Below, in pieces: positions 35,786 to 39,889 of a stretch of 44,343 bases of DNA (its first letter is position 1; the number at the start of each line of letters is the position of its first letter). The stretch is taken from assembly GCF_001552675.1 (NCBI RefSeq), contig NZ_BCRQ01000019.1:1-44343 (forward strand), in the 5' to 3' direction. Source of the DNA: Alicyclobacillus sendaiensis NBRC 100866. Its GTDB lineage: Bacteria; Bacillota; Bacilli; Alicyclobacillales; Alicyclobacillaceae. The notes beneath the pieces are model-generated. The model was not told the DNA's origin, ran no database searches, and saw only the letters and a program-made list of their open reading frames with translations. The translations under genes and the position numbers were made by a program.

Positions 35786-35964
35786 CCTGCTTCACCCTCA
35801 TCCATTCCATGAAGGAAAGATGTGTTGTCGGCGTTTCGCGAGTTTCGAATTTCGCAACGGACGGCATCACCCGATGTTTCCCCTGTGCATAGGATACGTC
35901 GGCAGATACCTCAATGGACCACTCCATCAAATCGGATGGGGAGTGAGCAGGGGGGTTGGCGGGT

Positions 35965-37293
35965 ATGGAGATGAGTTCTGCAACATCGCAAGCTCAGGCG
36001 AGATCGGATGCGCCGTCGAAACTTCAGGAGATCTCCGCAGCGAGTGCCAACAAGGGATTGAAAAGGTTCTTGTGGTCTTTCTGGGTGCTCTTGGGCCCTG
36101 GCTTTCTTGCTGCCCTCGCGGACAATGACGCGGGCGGCGTCATCTCGTACACGGCCACGGGCGTCCAATTTGGGATTGGGCTGTTCGTCCCCTTGGTGCT
36201 GTGCCTGTCGGTCCTCACGTTCACCGTCCAGGAGATGAGCATGCGACTCAGCGCCGTGACGCAGGAAGGATTTTCGCGACTCGCGTGGCGGAGATACGGC
36301 AGATTTTGGGGATTGTATCACGTGACGACGCTCGCCTTCGAGAATCTGTTGACGCTCATGACGGAGTTCATCGGCATGTCGGCTGGGCTTGCGATGCTCG
36401 GAATCCCCATGTGGGTAGCCGATCTCCTCTGCTTGATCTTCGTGATCTCGTTCGTCGTATTCACGGGCTACTACACAAAAGAACGCATCGCCCTCGTCAT
36501 CGGCGGGTTGAACATCGTCTTTCTCGTCGTGGCCGCCATGACGCATCCGAGCCTCGCGGCCCTGGGGAAGGCGTTCGCGACGTGGAACGTTCCCGCCTCG
36601 CTCCGGGACGGCGTGATCTGGTTTGTCATCGCCACGGTGGGCAACGCGATCGCGCCTTGGATGATCTTCTTCCAGGGCAGCGGCGCCATTGACAAAGGGG
36701 TCAGCGCTCGCGATATTCGATTGGGCAGAATCGACACGGCTTTCGGCTGCCTGATGCAGGCCGTGATCGCTGCGGCCATCATCGTCTGTGGAGCGTCGCT
36801 ATATGGTCATCTCCACAACGTGGCGAGTCTGAGTCCGGCGGATATCATCGGGGGACTCCGGCAAACCGTGGGGCGATTGGGTGCGACGCTCTTTGGCATC
36901 GGCCTGTTTGACGCAGGTTTCTTGGCTGCCATCACGGTGTCACTCTCGTCTTCCTGGAGCATTGCGGAACTGTTCGGCTGGTCCAACAGCCTCAATGACA
37001 AAGTACGGCAAGCGCCCAAATTCTATGCCATCTACGCGGGCAGTTTGGTGATAGCGGCGGCTGCCATCTTGATTCCGCACATGCCGCTCAACCTGATTTC
37101 CATCGTGACGCAGGTCATCGGGGGCGTGTTGATGACGCCGCTCCTCATTTTTCTGGTTGTGATGACGAGTGACAAGGAGCTGATGGGGCCGTATCGCACG
37201 AAACGGTGGGGGCGCATATGGGGCTGGGCGATGGTTGCCCTGCTCATCGCGTTGACGTTCGCCACGCTGCTTCAGACCGTTCTCCAGGCGTGA
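35965..37293 (+). CDS. Nramp-related divalent metal transporter 1
   Basis: The 442-residue protein has 11 likely helices. The SLC11 metal-site motifs are altered: helix 1 reads ALADNDAGG (53-58) where Nramp has DPGN, and helix 6 reads AIAPWMIFF (230-233) where Nramp has MPHN. Loss of the helix-6 methionine is the mark of Nramp-related magnesium transporters. ATG 35965 has AGGGGGG about nine bases upstream; ATG 35971 and TTG 35956 are alternatives. No M-box precedes this copy, unlike the next gene. It is divergent from the XRE-DUF1232 gene. Confidence 0.88.
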   Translation: MEMSSATSQAQARSDAPSKLQEISAASANKGLKRFLWSFWVLLGPGFLAALADNDAGGVISYTATGVQFGIGLFVPLVLCLSVLTFTVQEMSMRLSAVTQEGFSRLAWRRYGRFWGLYHVTTLAFENLLTLMTEFIGMSAGLAMLGIPMWVADLLCLIFVISFVVFTGYYTKERIALVIGGLNIVFLVVAAMTHPSLAALGKAFATWNVPASLRDGVIWFVIATVGNAIAPWMIFFQGSGAIDKGVSARDIRLGRIDTAFGCLMQAVIAAAIIVCGASLYGHLHNVASLSPADIIGGLRQTVGRLGATLFGIGLFDAGFLAAITVSLSSSWSIAELFGWSNSLNDKVRQAPKFYAIYAGSLVIAAAAILIPHMPLNLISIVTQVIGGVLMTPLLIFLVVMTSDKELMGPYRTKRWGRIWGWAMVALLIALTFATLLQTVLQA

Positions 37294-37388
37294 TTGGACC
37301 TCCGCCATGAAGATGGCAGCCGTAGCCTCCGGAAACGTGCGCAACAAAAAAGGTTTCAGGGAGAACGCGTTCTTGACCCTCAGAACCC
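37294..37388 (+). other. Interval between the first transporter and the M-box promoter
   Basis: A short GCCAT/ATGGC hairpin (about 37305-37318) is present but without a T-tract. No terminator or gene is seen. Confidence 0.4.
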
Positions 37389-37417
37389 TTGACAGATGGG
37401 ACGGTCAATGATACAAA
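37389..37417 (+). promoter_or_regulatory. Sigma-A promoter of the M-box transcript
   Basis: A perfect TTGACA (37389-37394), 17 bases, TACAAA (37412-37417) with TG one base upstream of the -10. Start near 37424. Confidence 0.75.
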
Positions 37418-37502
37418 GACAGAGGTATTGCGTTGGCCGGTGACGGGCATCCGCCCAGGCACCGCGCTGCGCGTGAAACATACCATAACTAGCGAAGATG
37501 CG

Positions 37503-37658
37503 TTCCTCGTTAGGCGAGGCTACTATACGAACACATGCCACTGCCCGGAAACGTGGAGACACGCCAATGGGTAGAACAGGTATGGCCGGCTTAAGGCTTT
37601 ACCTAACGTGGCTGGGTTTGCCCTACGTCGTATAGTGCCAAAGCTCAACCAGGGGGGA
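37503..37658 (+). promoter_or_regulatory. M-box (ykoK) magnesium riboswitch aptamer
   Basis: The conserved M-box blocks occur in order: TCGTTAGGCGAGGCT (37507-37521), ACTGCCCGGAAACG (37540-37553), ACGCCAATGGGT (37561-37572) with AACAGG, AAGGCTTTACC, GGCTGGGTTTGCCCTA, and GTGCCAAAGCTC (37635-37646). The long helix CTATACGA/TCGTATAG brackets the core. The closing helix can form between TTCCTC (37503-37508) and GGGGGA (37653-37658). In B. subtilis this RNA binds several Mg(II) ions and turns transcription off. Here it precedes an Nramp-related transporter. Confidence 0.96.
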
Positions 37659-37708
37659 TGTGCATAGGGTTGCGCCCGTGCCCCCTGGTCCGCCAGGGGG
37701 CTTTTCAT
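37648..37708 (+). terminator. M-box expression platform: antiterminator and terminator
   Basis: The terminator is GCCCCCTGG (37680-37688) with CCAGGGGGC (37693-37701), then TTTTC. The competing antiterminator is ACCAGGGGG (37648-37656) pairing perfectly with CCCCCTGGT (37681-37689). The same G-run also closes the aptamer. So high magnesium should form the aptamer and free the terminator (off), and low magnesium should form the antiterminator (on). Confidence 0.92.
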
Positions 37709-37744
37709 TGGGCCATGATGGAGACCGTGGAGGAGGTGATGGGT

Positions 37745-37924
37745 ATGGACAGTCCGTCGAGTAGTCGCTCCGTATGTGCGATGCATCGGCAGAGAGCTCG
37801 AATTGGAGTGGATTTCAAGGTATTGCATCATATTGGGGCGTGGGGACTTCCTGCCCATCGCCCGCCCAGGGGTGATTGTCATGGCTCGCAACACCAATGT
37901 GTACGCAACGAAGGATTTGCATGA
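37745..37924 (+). CDS. Upstream ORF overlapping the transporter start (candidate leader peptide)
   Basis: A 59-codon frame starting MDSPSSSRSVCAMHR lies downstream of the M-box terminator. Its ATG at 37745 is preceded by AGGAGGTGAT (37731-37740), a perfect complement to the end of 16S rRNA at ideal spacing. It ends at 37924, 44 bases inside the transporter gene and in another frame. It is rich in Arg, Ser, His and Pro (LPAHRPPRGD) and has no membrane segment. It may couple or tune translation of the transporter. Coding is inferred from the ribosome site alone. Confidence 0.5.
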   Translation: MDSPSSSRSVCAMHRQRARIGVDFKVLHHIGAWGLPAHRPPRGDCHGSQHQCVRNEGFA

Positions 37925-39227
37925 GCTGGAGCGTGAACTTCGCGCCAAAGATATGGCTCGGGTGGCCCGCCTCTACAACAAGCGCGGCTTTTGGGCGCGC
38001 CTGCGGCTCCTTTTGGTGCTGATCGGCCCTGGCGTGCTGACGATGATCGCCGACAACGACGCTGGCGGCGTCATCACGTATGCGCAGACGGGGGCCACGT
38101 ACGGGATTGGCTTCTTCATTCCTTCGCTCATCATCGCGGGGTTCATCGCGTATGTCGTGCAGGAGATGACCGTCCGGTTGGGCGCCGTCACGCGCCGGGG
38201 CCATGCCGAGATGATCTGGGGCCGATATGGCGCGTTCTGGGGCTGGTTTTCGCTGATCGATCTCGTCGTGGCCAACGTGCTCACGCTCGTGACGGAGTTC
38301 ATCGGGATCAAGATTGGCATGGGCGTCTTTGGGGTCCCGGGGTGGATTAGCGAAACCCTTGCGCTCGCCATCGACGTATTTGCACTGCTCGTCTTGCGGT
38401 ACTACACGTGGGAGCGCATCGCACTTTGGATTGCCGCGGGAAACCTCATCTTCATCCCGCTCATGTTTATGGCGAAGCCGCACTGGTCGGCTGTGGCGGA
38501 TGCGTTTGTGCGTTGGAACGTTCCCGGCGGGTTCACCGCTTCGTTCTTGTTCATCGTGTTGGCCAACTTCGGCACCACCATTGCGCCGTGGATGCTGTTC
38601 TTCCAGCAGTCGTCCGTGGTGGACAAAGGGCTCACGGAGCGAGACATCCGGCACGGTCAGCTGGATACGGCGCTCGGCACATTGGCGATGATTGTGGTGG
38701 CCTGCGCCATCATCGTGCTCACGGGCACGGTCATGCACGGCTCGCACGGCGTGAACCTGGACATCAGCGGCATTCTGAATCTGCTTGGCGCCAAGATTGG
38801 CCCGGTGGGTGAACGGTTGTTTGCGCTCGGGCTGGTGGAAGCCGGGCTCATCGCCGCTATCGCGTTGACGGCGAGCACGTCGTGGGCCATGGGCGAGGCC
38901 TTCCACTGGCCGAAGAGCATCAACATGCCGGCGCGCCTGGCGTGGAAGTTTTATGTGCCCGGCATCGCGAGCGCCGTGATTGCGGCCGGGATCGTGCTCA
39001 TTCCGCACGCGCCGCTGGGCTTCTTGAACATGATTGTACAGGTCATTGCGTCCATCTTTATGCCGGCCGCGCTCATGTTCCTGATGCTTCTGCTGAATGA
39101 CCGTGAGGTGATGGGCGATCACGTCAATCGCCCGTGGCAGAACATCTCCGGTTTCGCCATCATCGGGCTTTTGGTCGTGCTGAATGGCCTGTACGGGCTG
39201 ACGGTGATCTTCCCGAACTTGTTCTGA
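37881..39227 (+). CDS. Nramp-related magnesium transporter (NRMT-like) under M-box control
   Basis: The 448-residue protein has 11 likely helices. Helix 1 reads MIADNDAGG (58-63) and helix 6 TTIAPWMLFF (235-238), replacing the DPGN and MPHN motifs of manganese/iron Nramps. The helix-6 methionine that favours transition metals is Ala. Published M-box-controlled Nramp relatives of Clostridium transport Mg(II), so magnesium import is the likely role. ATG 37881 has AGGGGTGAT about eight bases upstream. The gene is followed after 13 bases by a small membrane protein. It is a paralogue of the gene at 35965. Confidence 0.92.
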   Translation: MARNTNVYATKDLHELERELRAKDMARVARLYNKRGFWARLRLLLVLIGPGVLTMIADNDAGGVITYAQTGATYGIGFFIPSLIIAGFIAYVVQEMTVRLGAVTRRGHAEMIWGRYGAFWGWFSLIDLVVANVLTLVTEFIGIKIGMGVFGVPGWISETLALAIDVFALLVLRYYTWERIALWIAAGNLIFIPLMFMAKPHWSAVADAFVRWNVPGGFTASFLFIVLANFGTTIAPWMLFFQQSSVVDKGLTERDIRHGQLDTALGTLAMIVVACAIIVLTGTVMHGSHGVNLDISGILNLLGAKIGPVGERLFALGLVEAGLIAAIALTASTSWAMGEAFHWPKSINMPARLAWKFYVPGIASAVIAAGIVLIPHAPLGFLNMIVQVIASIFMPAALMFLMLLLNDREVMGDHVNRPWQNISGFAIIGLLVVLNGLYGLTVIFPNLF

Positions 39228-39240
39228 GGAGGTGTGAGCG

Positions 39241-39420
39241 ATGAAGCGGAAGAACCACGCGATTGTCGACTGTGCGCCGAGAGCGCCCATCTCTCCCACG
39301 GAACCGCTGCCGCGCGCCGAGGTGAAGGGTTGGGTCAAGGCGGTGTTCTGGGGACTCCGGGTCTACATCGCCATCATGTTAGTGCTTGTCGTCATCGGCC
39401 TGGCGAAAGGGAGCTTCTGA
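39241..39420 (+). CDS. 59-residue single-span membrane protein after the magnesium transporter
   Basis: Starts MKRKNHAIVDCAPRAPISPT. A polar, proline-containing N-terminus of about 30 residues is followed by one membrane helix (VFWGLRVYIAIMLVLVVIGLA, split here as VFWGLRVYIA and IMLVLVVIGLA) and a short tail GSF. ATG 39241 has GAGGAGGTGTGAG upstream and lies 13 bases after the transporter stop; the terminator follows. The arrangement suggests a small subunit or stability factor for the transporter, like small proteins that bind other magnesium importers. No homologue recognised. Confidence 0.78.
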   Translation: MKRKNHAIVDCAPRAPISPTEPLPRAEVKGWVKAVFWGLRVYIAIMLVLVVIGLAKGSF

Positions 39421-39459
39421 GGCACCCCGAGACGCTTGTGTGAAGGAGAGGAGTCGCGA

Positions 39460-39480
39460 ATGCGGCCACACAGTCTATAG
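39460..39480 (+). other. Six-codon ORF with strong ribosome site
   Basis: ATG CGG CCA CAC AGT CTA TAG follows GGAGAGGAG (39445-39453) by six bases and abuts the terminator stem. It could be the relic of a deleted gene or a ribosome-placement element. Confidence 0.35.
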
Positions 39481-39521
39481 GCCTGCTTCCCGAGAGCGAG
39501 GCAAGGGAAGCAGGCCTTTTC
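39479..39521 (+). terminator. Terminator of the magnesium transporter operon
   Basis: AGGCCTGCTTCCC (39479-39491) pairs perfectly with GGGAAGCAGGCCT (39505-39517), then TTTTC. Confidence 0.9.
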
Positions 39522-39528
39522 ACACGCG

Positions 39529-39657
39529 CTACAGTCCTTTGTGGCGGATTCGTTCGCGACGTTCACCGGCGCGGGCCCTTGACCCTGCGCCGTACAGGAC
39601 GGCGGAGCGGGCTGCGAGTACGGCACCGACGGCGGCTGCGCCTAAGATCCACTTCAT
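39529..39657 (-). CDS. 42-residue membrane/secreted small protein
   Basis: Starts MKWILGAAAVGAVLAARSAVLY, one hydrophobic segment, followed by a basic tail (RARAGERRERIRHKGL). ATG 39657 has GAGGAGG seven bases upstream, strong support for translation. The tail favours a membrane-anchored topology over secretion. It is convergent with the magnesium operon. No function recognised. Confidence 0.62.
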   Translation of the reverse strand: MKWILGAAAVGAVLAARSAVLYGAGSRARAGERRERIRHKGL

Positions 39658-39889
39658 CGCTTGGACCTCCTCGCTACGTGCCCATGATGTCCACAAGTTT
39701 CCCCAGGGACACATCGTTTCCCCGAGGCAAACTTTTGTTGTAGGCTATGCGTTCAAAGCGCGGGCTGTGCTGGCTGTGGGCTATGTGCCGTCGCCGCAAC
39801 TTGTGAAACGCACTGGATTTCGAGCGTTCTTCAAGCTGGGCGTGGTATTGTGAAACTGCGGAACCCCCCTGAAACCCCCTAAACATCCT

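Follow-up and report, generated by a model that had tools for sequence, protein, structure and literature searches.

An M-box-controlled NRMT operon of Alicyclobacillus sendaiensis with a candidate one-helix partner protein

Introduction

In Clostridium acetobutylicum, NRMT genes are under M-box control; the passages of Shin et al. (2014, PMC4072509) that concern NrmT describe an M-box and a terminator upstream of the Nramp-related genes Ca_c0685 and Ca_c3329, with predicted Mg2+ import. Here, we analysed a 44,343-nt stretch of Alicyclobacillus sendaiensis NBRC 100866 (contig NZ_BCRQ01000019.1; the window), in which positions 37389-39521 carry an operon of the same type, consisting of an M-box riboswitch, an NRMT gene and a gene for a 59-residue single-span membrane protein. 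An earlier note on this DNA had stated that M-box control of an Nramp relative is known from Clostridium, as the publication confirms. The common extra gene there encodes a protein homologous to the N-terminal domain of MgtE, whereas here it encodes the 59-residue helix protein (the Clostridium loci were compared by publication only).

The closest solved structure is that of EleNRMT (7qia), whose DxxG-TxxA site and APW motif in helix 6, as described in the pertinent sections of Ramanadane et al. (2022, PMC8806188), recur in the present transporter. A model of the homolog at locus L037 aligns to 7qia_A with a Z score of 46.5 over 393 residues at 3.0 Å, but with 30% identity in this alignment, and a quick tree places EleNRMT outside our groups A-C. 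MgtS, MgtU and MgtR are likewise small membrane proteins associated with Mg2+ transporters (PMC13209247, PMC10710835); set against the present family by description only, they differ in having a P-type ATPase as partner. In Mycobacterium tuberculosis, the conserved small open reading frame (ORF) Rv1805A lies between an M-box and its main gene and is described as a translational platform with Rho (PMC12810186), whereas here, also compared by description only, an intrinsic terminator precedes the upstream ORF (uORF). The NRMT literature, in the parts on which we draw, treats NRMTs as single transport proteins (PMC8806188, PMC4072509). Judged from sequence, the new points are the partner family, its linkage to NRMT, its fusion to the transporter and its alternation with MgtE_N.

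The best explanation, to which we assign a probability of roughly 0.6, is that the locus is a Mg2+-starvation operon in which the small protein serves as a dedicated helix subunit of the NRMT. At low Mg2+, the M-box would be open, an antiterminator would form and RNA polymerase would read into the NRMT and small genes; at high Mg2+, helix P1 would close and a terminator would form. The 59-residue protein would be a one-helix subunit of the group-A transporter lineage, lying in the membrane, probably with its N terminus inside and its C terminus outside (N-in/C-out). It would pack on the 11-helix transporter through an F-W-x-L-R-x-Y-I-x-x-M face and be needed for assembly, stability or gating of the transporter. 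Such a conserved partner helix, if true, would change NRMT assays by making co-expression relevant, might explain the poor expression or transport of some NRMTs, and would offer a defined interface at which to test assembly or gating of a LeuT-fold Mg2+ carrier.

Organization and control of the operon

The operon comprises the following features.

37389-37417, plus strand: candidate promoter read by eye (TTGACA at 37389-37394, 17 nt, extended -10 element TGATACAAA ending at 37417)
37499-37663, plus strand: M-box Mg riboswitch aptamer (RF00380, 158.8 bits, model positions 1-169, not truncated)
37649-37656 paired with 37681-37688, plus strand: antiterminator, predicted from sequence and constrained folding
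37680-37701 by pattern scan (feature spans 37680-37705), plus strand: intrinsic terminator, predicted from pattern and folding
37881-39227, plus strand: NRMT transporter of group A, 448 amino acids (site DNDAGG / GTTIAPW; Pfam PF01566, 217.9 bits)
39241-39420, plus strand: 59-residue single-span protein (LRxY helix family), preceded by GGAGGTG; recognized by locus conservation, profile scans and the ratio of nonsynonymous to synonymous divergence (dN/dS)
39480-39520, plus strand: closing intrinsic terminator (stem 39480-39516, -28.1 kcal/mol, followed by TTTT)

The aptamer, for which the RF00380 gathering score is 44, is the only match to this model in the whole genome. One G-run (37649-37656) is common to P1, the antiterminator and the terminator, its alternative pairing being predicted as exclusive with P1. 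In folding predictions, the full-length RNA favours closed P1 plus terminator (-93.0 kcal/mol) over the form with the antiterminator enforced (-89.8 kcal/mol), while the antiterminator is the minimum (-83.1 kcal/mol) in an RNA stopping at the terminator loop. These preferences fit an OFF switch at high Mg2+, and Mg2+-dependent termination is accordingly a prediction from folding. By eye, a similar terminator stem is present in all seven aligned Alicyclobacillus leaders. The full M-box, the single G-run common to antiterminator and terminator, and the closing terminator had all been read from the letters in the earlier note, and each of them stands. The promoter that it also proposed is visible by eye, and TTGACA with TGnTACAA occurs in six of the seven Alicyclobacillus leaders (window counted), but it is not listed by a consensus promoter scan.

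In 30 genomes holding homologous loci, an M-box was found in 16, one in each and always just upstream of a group-A NRMT when positions were compared, with candidates scored only in part in some of these genomes. The pair of NRMT and small gene persists in the 14 genomes without an M-box match.

The transporter and its likely substrate

The transporter of the window, 97% identical to the NRMT of A. mali, carries DxxG in helix 1 and the TxxA/T pattern in helix 6; DxxG-TxxA is given as the NRMT site signature in the structural study (PMC8806188). EleNRMT is its best match among solved structures (E-value 8.3e-56; the next is 3.8e-17). With an RF00380 hit upstream and the DNDAGG / GTTIAPW site, the gene is an M-box-controlled NRMT, as the earlier note had proposed. 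It is not a canonical MntH, scoring 115.1 bits against a cut-off of 430 with the NCBIfam MntH model and lacking the DPGN and MPH motifs. Our scan of the window genome found no MgtE, no CorA and nothing over the cut-off for MgtA (TIGR01524); among 18 genomes tested, none matched MgtE, six matched CorA and none matched MgtA (TIGR01524). Based on the NRMT site, the low MntH score and these missing transporters, Mg2+ is the likely substrate.

The earlier note had also argued for Mg2+ over Mn2+ from the loss of the helix-6 methionine. Taken alone, this loss is no argument, since EcoDMT M235A retained Mn transport and gained Ca, and a triple mutant still took up no Mg, in the results of the 2022 eLife study that bear on this point (PMC8806188); the site as a whole and the riboswitch argue better for Mg2+. 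These arguments are in turn made weaker by an Acidobacterium NrmT that has no M-box and whose behaviour was that of a probable Mn2+ importer (PMC4072509, section 11).

Translation of the transporter most likely begins at ATG 37881, with an in-frame GTG located 9 nt upstream. The segment just before this ATG, 37834-37880, is conserved at the DNA level in most of the seven Alicyclobacillus leaders, and of its two frames, that of the transporter seems under stronger constraint than that of the uORF. Translation might begin earlier, although L035 carries an in-frame stop within this segment.

The small protein and its linkage to NRMT genes

The 59-residue protein has one hydrophobic span, and R40, Y42 and M46 are invariant among 55 aligned members. 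No Pfam or NCBIfam model scored over its cut-off in the eight members tested, and the PDB search returned no relative (a sole match with an E-value of 0.33, not credible) and no sequence match to any Nramp. In four comparisons of close relatives, dN was 0.10-0.14 and dS 0.44-1.06; dN is far under dS, and the gene therefore encodes a selected protein under purifying selection. Our search of the open-licence literature, judged mainly by titles and the starts of abstracts and with supplements excluded, found no account of a small NRMT partner. The protein does appear unstudied, as the earlier note had supposed, and the evidence for it is now far stronger than that note could know.

In the best 80 of 550 loci from a genome scan, the small gene lies directly downstream of the NRMT gene in all 80 (77 by tblastn and three by reading downstream frames), at a distance of 8-265 nt (median 29.5) from the transporter stop to its own start. 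The record titles of these loci name Alicyclobacillus, Sulfobacillus, Ferroacidibacillus, Acidithiobacillus and Acidiphilium, as well as metagenome-assembled genomes (MAGs) of Actinomycetes, Deltaproteobacteria, Thermoplasmata and Micrarchaeota; they thus span several bacterial phyla and the archaea. From their names, we take most of the hosts to be acidophiles.

Linkage is nearly exclusive in wider searches as well. A profile of the family gave 52 matches in 30 genomes, 50 of them no more than about 400 nt from a gene of the Nramp family. The two exceptions are L130/L158 (genome G064), which sits among MFS, PLD and fumarase genes outside any NRMT operon, and L131 (G080), which has no LRxY motif. 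Among 398 genomes of the window's phylum, 11 matches were found in eight genomes (window counted), ten beside an NRMT and the eleventh a weak match inside a 338-residue ORF; at least three of the eight genomes resemble ones in our other scans (same contig numbers and places), and the scan therefore cannot count as fully independent. Eight matches came from 243 genomes of the phylum to which a Thermoplasmata MAG (G089) belongs, and all eight lie beside NRMT sequence. Searches of 72,556 plasmids retrieved three records with the window protein and two with a third-type protein of the family, all five beside an NRMT; the small ORFs are annotated as hypothetical proteins in three of them and unannotated in two. 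Within the genus, the small gene was not found in nine of 15 genomes, in which the NRMT itself was not searched.

Gene order and gene structure point in the same direction. At L133, the order is reversed, with the small gene first and overlapping the transporter start by 4 nt. Four transporters (L114/L157, L212, L213 and L214) have a C-terminal extension that ends in an LRxY helix. In L114, one extra hydrophobic span precedes the fused helix, and the tails of L212, L213 and L214 look alike. The L114 tail matches the combined profile with an E-value of 1.4e-7 as a single-sequence search and 4e-6 in the full protein. In the larger set, L212 gave 0.71, L214 gave 4.6 and L213 was unlisted, so these three fusions rest on motif and position. 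A similar gene is split across two frames in L215.

Several of these loci merit separate mention. The group-A plasmid pairs (L208, L209 and L216) belong to Acidithiobacillus caldus and two Acidiphilium species, and on the A. cryptum plasmid an MgtC/SapB family gene comes next after the pair. In L210 (2831-2998) and L211, on conjugative plasmids of Citrobacter freundii and Serratia marcescens, an unannotated third-type LRxY ORF stands between the NRMT and an MgtE_N/CBS gene; the three-gene stretch of Citrobacter had no match in E. coli genomes. L205, from the phylum of G089, is a degenerate-looking pair, with a fragmentary NRMT match and a TAG inside the small gene. One NRMT copy of Acidithiobacillus ferrivorans (L104, 5001-6317) contains a single in-frame TGA, marking either a pseudogene or a sequencing error.

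NRMT groups and their partner modules

A quick tree of 85 rows (SH-aLRT support only, long branches flagged) groups the NRMT relatives by site motif, with EleNRMT outside groups A-C. Group A (GTT[IV]APW) has the small partner described above, and 43 of its 45 rows fall in one clade, L115 and L116 standing apart. Group B (ENDAPS / GAT[IV]TPW, 16 rows) has a second-type partner, and group C (GNAxAPW and similar, 13 rows, including a second NRMT-like gene of the window at 35956-37293) has none. The members of group B (L117-L129, L133, L138 and L140) combine DxxS in helix 1 and AxxT in helix 6 with an LRxY partner of their own second type; AxxT is the helix-6 pattern of the plant NRAT aluminium transporters as presented in PMC8806188.

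A different module accompanies the relatives of EleNRMT. When 249 genomes from the phylum to which G076 belongs were searched with EleNRMT, 22 matches exceeded 300 bits, and loci were obtained for 21 of them (L159-L179). The small homolog was found in none of these 21 EleNRMT-type loci, and an MgtE_N/CBS gene adjoins the transporter in every one. Conversely, MgtE_N/CBS was detected in none of the 80 group-A loci and not in the window (one tblastn query, E-value 1e-4, flanks up to 5 kb). Four loci (L206, L207, L210 and L211) have a third-type helix together with an MgtE_N gene, and the fused loci L213 and L214 also carry MgtE_N. Based on these locus contents, the NRMT lineages of our sample are accompanied by either of two partner modules or occasionally by both, with neither present in group C. 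That all NRMTs carry the helix was considered and rejected, as 21 EleNRMT-type loci and 13 group-C genes are without it.

We would place even odds on a wider proposal, in which a large part of the NRMT superfamily would be heteromeric with a one-helix LRxY subunit, either free (types A, B and the third) or fused C-terminally after an extra span. EleNRMT-type members would have an MgtE_N/CBS protein as their partner and a few would carry both, so that the two modules would have been swapped or combined in evolution. In acidophiles without MgtE and CorA, this importer, under the only M-box of the genome, would be the main Mg2+ importer. The same pattern suggests that some acidophiles of two domains may rely on an NRMT importer rather than on MgtE or CorA.

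Orientation of the helix and alternative readings

The N side of the helix carries more positive charge than the C side in 75 of the 80 group-A members and in 19 of 20 others, which are mostly of the second type and include orphan L130; the remaining members are balanced, and none has more on the C side. This bias suggests an N-in/C-out orientation, with which the extra span in the fusions agrees.

The least improbable alternative, which we still consider unlikely, is that the helix corresponds to a twelfth transmembrane helix (TM12) of the Nramp fold that has become detached, and lies N-out/C-in. It derives from AlphaFold models of read-through proteins, for L037 (tether of about 40 residues, predicted template modelling score 0.85, helix predicted local distance difference test [pLDDT] about 80-85) and for L067 (tether of about 75 residues, 0.82, helix pLDDT about 90). 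In both models, alignments to EcoDMT, NRAMP1 and DMT1, which we take to have 12 spans, run into the helix, whereas those to EleNRMT and to DraNramp, ScaDMT and BfraNramp, presumably of 11 spans, stop at TM11, except for 6d91 in the second model. Against this placement stand the charge distribution, the further hydrophobic span before the helix in the fusions and the missing sequence match to PDB Nramps; moreover, the pose may be biased by the tether and by 12-span Nramps among the training structures. What the models offer is no more than a hint that packing of the helix next to the transporter is feasible.

It is doubtful, though a reading to be taken seriously, that the small protein regulates turnover or activity of the transporter rather than being a standing subunit. 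Small single-span regulators of Mg transporters exist; in the sections of PMC13209247 and PMC10710835 that treat them, MgtS and MgtU shield MgtA and MgtB from FtsH, and degradation is promoted by MgtR. Joint expression with the transporter from a single M-box operon is in keeping with such a role. Nevertheless, what is seen here, namely fusion, a reversed gene order at one locus and a linkage that is nearly exclusive across bacteria and archaea, would be expected more of a constitutive partner.

A third alternative concerns the uORF, which the earlier note had described as overlapping the transporter gene.

37745-37924, plus strand: leader ORF MDSPSSSR..., 59 amino acids, with a strong Shine-Dalgarno (SD) sequence at 37732-37738 and a 44-nt overlap with the transporter start

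Best read from its ATG at 37745, this ORF occurs in all seven Alicyclobacillus leaders (window counted), and other leaders have similar starts (MESGPS, VDIGPS, MDIGPL, LDSGPG, MDAGPS, LDSDPG and MDDGPS), giving a recurring motif [MLV][DE]-x-G/D-P in which, across eight leaders, the codons for D/E and P differ at no position but the third. Two comparisons gave dN/dS of 0.18/0.22 and 0.28/0.16 (0.8 and 1.8), that is, weak or absent constraint; what recurs is the strong SD and the start motif, with little constraint at the protein level over the length, and a protein conserved over its full length was rejected on these values. At best, the uORF may be a leader peptide.

Ribosome destabilization at low Mg2+, as with MgtL, is the model for a leader-peptide sensor, and we think it improbable that the uORF is a second Mg2+ sensor of this kind, acting after the M-box through an acidic-proline leader peptide. 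The strong SD, the starts between terminator and transporter (MDSPSSSR, MESGPS, VDIGPS, MDAGPS, MDDGPS and LDSDPG) and their third-base variation speak for it, as does the conserved uORF under the M-box of M. tuberculosis, as far as described in PMC12810186. However, an SD-filtered scan saw no such start in most Sulfobacillus-like loci or in the archaeal loci, another frame looks more constrained than that of the uORF, and the start motif may partly mark an RNA element. Finally, that the small gene is an ordinary conserved operon neighbour of unrelated function is very improbable: operon neighbours can co-transfer, and two of the matches in the 30 genomes have no Nramp gene nearby, but the small gene is rarely alone, is fused in L114 and probably in three others, and is found in reversed order in L133.

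Several points weigh against a dedicated helix subunit. All 21 EleNRMT-type loci are without the helix and EleNRMT was solved with 11 spans (PMC8806188, in the part describing its structure), so the fold works without it. The AlphaFold poses put the helix at the TM12 place, which would imply N-out, in conflict with the charge bias and the fusions, and the evidence for contact between helix and transporter, coming from such models, is indirect. Many of the 80 loci, selected as the best of 550, are close kin; two profile matches in the 30 genomes do not lie beside an Nramp gene; at least three of the eight genomes from the 398-genome scan were seemingly sampled elsewhere in the analysis; and for three of the four fusions the profile gives a weak score or none.

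Neighbouring genes and other features

The gene directly upstream of the M-box operon is an NRMT-like paralog.

35956-37293, plus strand: NRMT-like paralog of group C (DNDAGG / GNAIAPW; PF01566; best PDB match 7qia), assigned by motif and tree

It has NxxA in place of TxxA in helix 6; no small partner was found for it, and the Rfam scan gave no M-box of its own. The earlier note had called the operon complete, and its parts were confirmed, but this paralog had been overlooked. L034, L035 and L038 likewise have an NRMT-like gene ahead of the group-A gene.

Beyond the closing terminator, a minus-strand ORF of 61 amino acids (39529-39714) has a sub-threshold LapA_dom match (E-value 0.015). Just upstream of the -35 box, at 37362-37373, lies the palindrome AGAACGCGTTCT, kept as AGAACGYNTTCT in six leaders and as AAAGCGCTTTCT in A. 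montanus; it is perhaps an operator.

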